From positions 1 through 27,949 of the IMG/VR virus record IMGVR_UViG_3300044641_003556: a stretch of 27,949 nucleotides of DNA; one strand, given 5' to 3'. Below the pieces are notes generated by a model. It searched no databases, was not told where the DNA came from, and was given only the letters and a program-made list of their open reading frames with translations. This DNA comes from a virus. Shown piece by piece: positions 5,832 to 6,302 of this stretch (the stretch's first letter is position 1; every line of letters starts with the position of its first letter). The translations under genes were made by a program, and so were the position numbers.

Positions 5832-6302
5832 TTATTTTATTTGTTTTTCTTTATAGTAATTCTTTAACCATTCATCAGGTGACATTTTTTCTGTATTAAT
5901 ATCTGTATTAATATCTGTTTCAATAAATGTTTTTTTAACTGAAGTAATAGATGTTTTAATAGGTGAGCGTTTCCGCACACCTTCTTGTGCGTTTCCGCTT
6001 ACCCCTTTGTGCGTATCCGCAACATTACCTTTGTGCGGTATGATAGTTCTGGCGCTCTTATTTTTACTTTTATTCACCACAATTATTTTGATATATTCAT
6101 TTTCAACGAGATAAGAAATACGCTTACTTACATTCCCTCTATGAATATGTAATAACTCACCAAACTTTTCATTTGACGCAATACAACCTAATGGTAATTT
6201 TGAGTATGAGATTATCTCTGATAGTAATGCTTTATTTAACCAATCTAAATTATCATCTTCAATAATCTCTATTGGAATCCAAATACCTTTTCTATTTTCC
6301 AT
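5832..6302 (-). CDS. Winged-helix replication-initiator-like protein (HTH_36 type)
   Basis: 156 residues. The N-terminal 90 residues look like the HTH_36 winged helix of phage and plasmid replication initiators: GIWIPIEIIEDDNLDWLNKA, then ASNEKFGELLHIHRGNVSKR as helix-turn-helix, then YIKIIVVNKSKNKSART as wing. A disordered middle follows, whose DNA carries iteron-like repeats, then a short C-terminal helix (SPDEWLKNYYKEK) similar to helicase-loader-binding tails of such proteins. An initiator with the origin inside its own gene is the arrangement of lambda O. The start at 6302 follows a structured leader. A plain transcription regulator is the alternative. Confidence 0.65.
   Translation of the reverse strand: MENRKGIWIPIEIIEDDNLDWLNKALLSEIISYSKLPLGCIASNEKFGELLHIHRGNVSKRISYLVENEYIKIIVVNKSKNKSARTIIPHKGNVADTHKGVSGNAQEGVRKRSPIKTSITSVKKTFIETDINTDINTEKMSPDEWLKNYYKEKQIK
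5891..5919. repeat. AT-rich 12-bp tandem repeat beside the iteron-like array
   Basis: CTGTATTAATAT occurs twice in tandem (5891-5902, 5903-5914) with a partial third copy (CTGTT). It encodes the ETDINTDINTE segment of the initiator-like protein. It lies about 50 bases from the iteron-like repeats and is strongly AT-rich, as a DNA-unwinding element next to an origin would be. The coding explanation is also sufficient, because 12 is a multiple of three. Confidence 0.6.
5961..6041. repeat. Iteron-like imperfect direct repeats (candidate origin)
   Basis: Four GC-rich units in an AT-rich background: GCGTTTCCGC at 5967-5976 and 5989-5998, GCGTATCCGC at 6011-6020, and a degenerate unit starting TTTGTGCGG at 6030. 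TTGTGCG precedes the core in units 2-4. Spacings are 22, 22 and 24 bases, close to two helical turns. Because 22 is not a multiple of three, the same DNA word is read in different frames (THKGV versus NAQEGV), so the conservation is in the DNA, not the peptide. Binding sites for the initiator encoded by the same gene are the likely explanation. Confidence 0.6.

Follow-up and report, generated by a model that had tools for sequence, protein, structure and literature searches.

An iteron array inside its initiator gene as a very probable replication origin in a metagenomic phage

Introduction

Do the short repeats that run through the coding region of a phage initiator gene serve the encoded peptide, or are they a DNA signal from which the genome is copied? 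The question is raised by a 156-codon gene in a stretch of 27,949 bases (the window), which is the entire public record of one virus fragment. Intragenic iteron origins are already known, and this layout has been established experimentally for lambda/Stx O (PMC7466680, PMC6022878), SPP1 gp38/oriL (PMC6316719) and pSK41 Rep (PMC5703833).

The repeat array

The repeated word reads GCGTWTCCGC on the plus strand, that is, GCGGAWACGC on the coding minus strand. It is present on the plus strand as GCGTTTCCGC at 5967-5976 and 5989-5998 and as GCGTATCCGC at 6011-6020. These three exact copies, starting at 5967, 5989 and 6011, are exactly 22 nt apart. There are no others in the 27.9-kb window, where dinucleotide shuffles give a chance expectation of 0.01 copies, and no second array of this word was found elsewhere in it. 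A three-word array with a 22-nt pitch was not generated by any of 100 dinucleotide shuffles, even when 3 mismatches were allowed. The fourth copy is a half-site (Table 1). The exact positions and the shuffles bear out a sequence-only reading of 5961-6041, an interval that covers the array, which had described three such words plus a degenerate fourth at spacings of 22, 22 and 24 bases.

The consensus of the iterons is a hyphenated inverted repeat, TGAGCG-N4-CGCWCA. In the close homologue L001 (see below) the dyad score is 0.72 against a column-shuffle mean of 0.51, and this score was reached in none of 200 shuffles. The array lies 280-340 nt past the start codon, far inside the coding region. 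Its successive units fall in frames 0, 1 and 2, where they read VADTHKGV, VSGNAQEG and GVRKRSPI, respectively, as expected from the earlier claim of shifting frames and differing peptides. Units in the window gene were placed by exact motif; the automatic unit finder had chosen AT-rich text at 353-447. An Rfam search returned no match, and a scan for sigma-70-like promoters gave a count no higher than chance.

Table 1. Features of the initiator locus, in window positions
Feature	Positions	Strand	Basis
Replication initiator gene, 156 aa (ATG at 6302, stop at 5832)	5832-6302	-	ORF, PHROG matches, homologues L001 and L002
Winged-helix DNA-binding domain, codons 1-90	6033-6302	-	AlphaFold block-mean pLDDT about 74-95; fold matches
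Linker with predicted disorder, codons 92-137	5892-6029	-	AlphaFold pLDDT <50 throughout
Short predicted C-terminal helix, codons 142-153	5844-5879	-	AlphaFold block-mean pLDDT 44-56 (low confidence)
Iteron 1, 16-bp hyphenated dyad TGAGCG-TTTC-CGCACA (plus strand)	5964-5979		Exact motif
Iteron 2, 22 nt from iteron 1	5986-6001		Exact motif
Iteron 3, 22 nt from iteron 2	6008-6023		Exact motif
Half-iteron, only the CGCACA arm (coding strand), 24 nt from iteron 3	6032-6047
AT-rich flank towards the gene's 3' end (candidate DNA unwinding element)	5885-5949		Duplex stability, tandem 12-mer

The AT-rich flank

The initiator gene has a GC content of 30%, in agreement with the AT-rich surroundings reported earlier, though few parts of the window are as stable as the array itself. 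Indeed, 50-bp windows at 5960-5990 belong to the most stable 1% of the 27.9 kb. Those starting at 5885-5900 belong to the least stable 1-1.5%, and those starting at 5885-5915 to the least stable 1-5%. This lowest-stability DNA near the array is found on one side only, the 3' side of the gene, and includes two tandem copies of the 12-mer TCTGTATTAATA at 5890-5913. GC skew, which had been proposed as a check, keeps a constant sign around the locus; since there is no sign change it is uninformative here, and it was dropped as an origin marker.

The initiator protein

The 156-aa protein matches PHROG 2880 (replication initiation protein; E=7.4e-12, residues 3-151), PHROG 270 (replication initiation protein; E=1.4e-10) and PHROG 186 (DnaD-like helicase loader; E=8e-9), with further PHROG matches besides. 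The first two, both families of phage replication initiation proteins, support its earlier description as an initiator. Pfam finds nothing significant when given this protein alone, the HTH_36 threshold not being reached; HTH_36 is matched by 31 of 34 aligned relatives. In the Pfam scan neither Phage_rep_O nor RepA_N gave a match up to E 0.1, PHROG 678 ('O-like') reached only E=0.027, and two of the 34 relatives match Phage_rep_O. Judged by these profile matches, the protein belongs to the HTH_36-type phage initiators (PHROG 2880/270) and not demonstrably to Pfam Phage_rep_O.

The AlphaFold model predicts a winged helix made of helices 21-33, 44-51 and 55-67 and of a wing with two strands, 71-78 and 82-89; block-mean pLDDT exceeds 90 across most of residues 11-67. 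The DNA of the following linker codons comprises the iterons and the beginning of the AT-rich flank. The short helix at the C-terminus is a candidate contact for the host helicase or its loader. Fold matches include 4pql, 4pt7 and 5kbj, the DnaD N-domain 2v79 and many unrelated winged helices. In the library the first three are titled simply 'DNA binding protein', 'initiator' and 'Rep-DNA complex'; we take them to be RepA_N initiator structures. The match to 4pql_A (Z 9.1, rmsd 3.3, 96 aligned) is tied with many unrelated winged helices, and a sequence search of the PDB returned only weak MarR-type winged-helix matches.

Neighbouring genes and host

The window, itself a genome fragment, contains no recognisable helicase, loader or primase gene. 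The next gene after the initiator encodes a 91-aa protein without a family match, and a P-type helicase loader is absent there. A few genes downstream of the initiator, 4549-5049 (minus strand) encodes a protein of 166 aa that weakly matches a sigma factor (PHROG 1740, 5e-4). Divergent from the initiator is an Endonuclease VII-like gene at 6485-6907 (PHROG 1035, 4.7e-9), the only clear plus-strand gene of the window; a hairpin at 6888-6910 that resembles a minus-strand terminator, T run included, overlaps its end. The adjacent minus-strand genes 3780-4199 and 4209-4547 have near-identical N-terminal halves of HNH type (CCVNHKDGNPSNNSLDNLEWVS / CCVNHKDRNPTNNSLDNLEWVS); a homing-endonuclease-like gene has probably been duplicated in tandem here. 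A pair of neighbouring DNA methyltransferase genes (PHROG 67, 1e-76 and 1e-60) occupies 699-3024 on the minus strand. Structural-type proteins with long Thr-Pro-Thr-Asn low-complexity stretches are encoded on the same strand at 11980-13209, 20042-21799 and 21847-25338; the stretch in the first of these is much longer in L022 (see below). The only named-phage relatives of the portal protein are those of Nonlabens phages P12024S/L (27% identity), so the host is likely a member of the Bacteroidota, as far as this portal sequence tells.

Close relatives keep the DNA repeats

Two IMG/VR contigs encode close homologues of the protein, L001 (contig L027) and L002 (contig L022). Over 9.1 kb contig L027 and the window share 98.65% identity, and the single gap, of 42 nt, lies inside the array. 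Three dyads and the half-site make up the array of the window; L001 and L002 have five and the half-site, at a strict 22-nt pitch throughout that includes the half-site in register. The gap equals two iterons (44 nt) minus 2 nt and so keeps the reading frame, which a change of 44 nt would break. The odd spacing in the window has the same source, since a loss of 42 instead of 44 nt stretches one spacing to 24.

L002, with an identity of 74% in the best tblastn segment and of 81% in the protein alignment, is as long as L001. Between L001 and L002, changes affect 5 of 80 sites in the 16-bp dyads against 12 of 30 in the 6-bp spacers (Fisher p=6e-5); two of the five dyad changes fall in the unpaired dyad centre. 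Array codons carry nine nonsynonymous and four synonymous changes, which argues that the peptide is not what is conserved. Both comparisons uphold the earlier view that selection acts on the DNA, and the comparison with related phages, which that view had itself offered as a possible refutation, finds that similar proteins do come with the repeats. The peptides of L001 and L002 have a period of 22 aa (66 nt), as expected if a 22-nt DNA period passes through three frames in these longer arrays.

When IMG/VR was searched for pairs of GCGNNWACGC words at a distance of 22 nt, 92 stretches were returned, L022 and L027 among them; most are likely chance matches in GC-rich contigs. No close relative was found in the bacterial genome collection searched, and the plasmid collection yielded only an LE1-like Leptospira replicon.

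A survey of the wider family

Searching with a profile confined to the DNA-binding domain retrieved 80 loci, which represent 32 distinct genes, the window's own among them. Six annotated phages and the two close homologues brought the sample to 40 genes, in the selection of which repeats played no part. Word pairs at a lag of 22 number 240, in 27 of the 40 genes, and those at a lag of 23 number 90, in 12 genes; lags of 25-41 have 0-6 pairs each. In 30 of the 40 genes the signal at lags 20-24 is above that of all 40 codon-preserving shuffles. An array was not detectable in L159, L176, L177, L182, L183, LE1 and C3_41T2LP; the protein of the last stops directly after the winged helix. The arrays of L158 and L178 have an in-frame period of 21 nt, with the peptide HSDV repeated, unlike the out-of-frame 22-nt rule.

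Units of the relatives frequently show dyad symmetry about an A-rich centre, as in TTCGG-AAAA-CCGAA (L106, Skulduggery), TGGCG-AAAA-CGCCA (L175), TATCA-AAA-TGATA (L145) and TCAAC-AAAA-GTTGA (L165). Perfect dyads with 5-bp arms are about threefold denser in the linker than elsewhere (0.0144 versus 0.0049 per nt), with 64 observed in the linker, where shuffling gives a mean of 19.9. The gene after the homologue encodes a replicative helicase in HU1 and a DnaC-like loader in Skulduggery. A simple Mantel test of recognition helix against iteron sequence is positive (reached by 18 of 999 permutations); the partial test that controls for relatedness is null (0.03, reached by 383 of 999), and co-variation of protein and DNA is for this reason not claimed.

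It is somewhat probable that HTH_36-type initiators of phages from different bacterial phyla share one design, in which the origin is an array with an out-of-frame period of about 22 bp, placed in the disordered-linker codons that follow the DNA-binding domain, with length changes that restore the frame. Neither such a family-wide array nor the frame-restoring indel was found described in the literature searched, which leaves out most subscription papers, and the general rule may be new.

Comparison with known systems

One of the closest known systems is that of the HTH_36-type phage initiators (PHROG 2880, 270), which include those of phages HU1, Skulduggery, Cruim01 and vB_LspM-01, and with which the Rep N-domain of plasmid pPR9 (pfam13730) is grouped. 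Like the window protein, they have a homologous winged-helix domain with a GIWIP...SN motif and a dyad array of about 22 nt in the linker right after it, a pattern that comes from this survey and not from a published criterion. The window differs from them in its dyad, GCG-N4-CGC as opposed to TTCGG-AAAA-CCGAA and others, and in its shorter protein (156 aa), whose C-terminal tail is small instead of long. The homology of pPR9 Rep to a putative phage replication protein extends over a segment of about 500 bp that matches the pSK41 RepA_N domain and origin (PMC5703833).

In lambda, the iterons lie in the O gene; each is a hyphenated inverted repeat whose arms are linked by adenines, and AT-rich DNA borders them on one side (PMC6022878). 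The window shares with lambda/Stx O the intragenic iterons, their hyphenated inverted repeats and the one-sided AT-rich DNA. In Stx phages two extra iterons lengthen O by 13 aa (PMC7466680), closely matched by the 14 aa by which window and L001 differ. Unlike lambda, the window has three and a half iterons, no clear Phage_rep_O membership and no P-like loader gene downstream. The label 'lambda O-type' given by the sequence-only reading is apt for the layout of gene and iterons; the protein goes with the HTH_36-type initiators (PHROG 2880/270) and not demonstrably with Phage_rep_O.

The winged-helix N-domain of pSK41 Rep binds four Rep boxes central in the rep gene, and its central domain is a dispensable linker (PMC5703833). 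The window protein has 4pql, 4pt7 and 5kbj among its top fold matches; unlike pSK41 Rep (RepA_N), it has neither a RepA_N Pfam match nor a DnaD-like C-terminal domain. In SPP1, gp38 binds direct repeats inside its own gene, and oriL has an AT-rich DUE (PMC6316719). A second origin, a loader and a helicase of its own, and a different protein family context set SPP1 apart from the window.

Interpretation and alternatives

From these comparisons we infer binding and origin activity, and it appears very probable that the locus combines an intragenic iteron-based replication origin with its own initiator. Because relatives keep the DNA repeats and not the letters of the protein, replication of the genome very probably begins with the binding of the gene's own product to the array, as it does in phage lambda. 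An altogether different account would make the repeats a by-product of a peptide repeat or of a recent tandem duplication, with no function as DNA. The 22-aa (66-nt) period of L001 and L002 is what a simple duplication of three units would give. However, the basic period in most relatives is 22 nt and out of frame, codon-preserving shuffles fail to produce it, cores are kept while spacers and peptide vary, and dyad symmetry is enriched, all of which makes this account very improbable. It is also improbable, if slightly less so, that the repeats are operators at which a winged-helix transcription regulator binds its own coding region, for autoregulation or as a transcription block, the origin being elsewhere. 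The fold does resemble MarR-type repressors as well, and dyad sites are typical of operators, but the best family matches are replication initiators, the sites are well within the coding region (280-340 nt past the start codon), and the arrays are tandem, phased and adjoin an unstable flank. The helicase gene that follows the HU1 homologue and the DnaC-like loader gene that follows that of Skulduggery also speak against operators.

The array could also be a genuine initiator-binding origin of secondary rank, the main start lying elsewhere, as in SPP1, where oriR is found about 13 kb from oriL (PMC6316719). That the window covers just a portion of the genome would favour this, whereas no second GCGTWTCCGC array occurs within its 27.9 kb; we consider it unlikely, though a good deal less so than operators. 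Since a secondary origin is a special case of an intragenic iteron origin, the two assessments overlap.

If the array is such an origin, the N-terminal winged helix of the 156-aa protein would bind each GCG-N4-CGC dyad, probably as one dimer per dyad. A 22-bp pitch amounts to two helical turns, which would align the bound dimers along a single face of the DNA. The nucleoprotein array may then strain and open the AT-rich flank 3' of it, and the C-terminal tail may help to bring in the replicative helicase, presumably that of the host because no loader gene is seen in this fragment. Binding, dimer stoichiometry, melting and helicase recruitment are all putative here. The array sits in codons of a linker predicted to be disordered, where the peptide may tolerate almost any sequence; this tolerance would allow the DNA to keep an out-of-frame 22-bp period and the array to vary in length if the frame is restored.

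Significance

A replication origin can be placed, as very probable, in a phage known from metagenome sequence alone. The locus is a clean natural example of one DNA stretch that carries two codes, a 22-bp period for protein binding and a 3-base reading frame. According to the survey, HTH_36-type phage initiators seem to follow this arrangement generally; if that is true, origins could be predicted from sequence alone, and those of many uncultured phages could be read from one gene. The arrays of the survey would likewise be testable specificity sets for origin compatibility.
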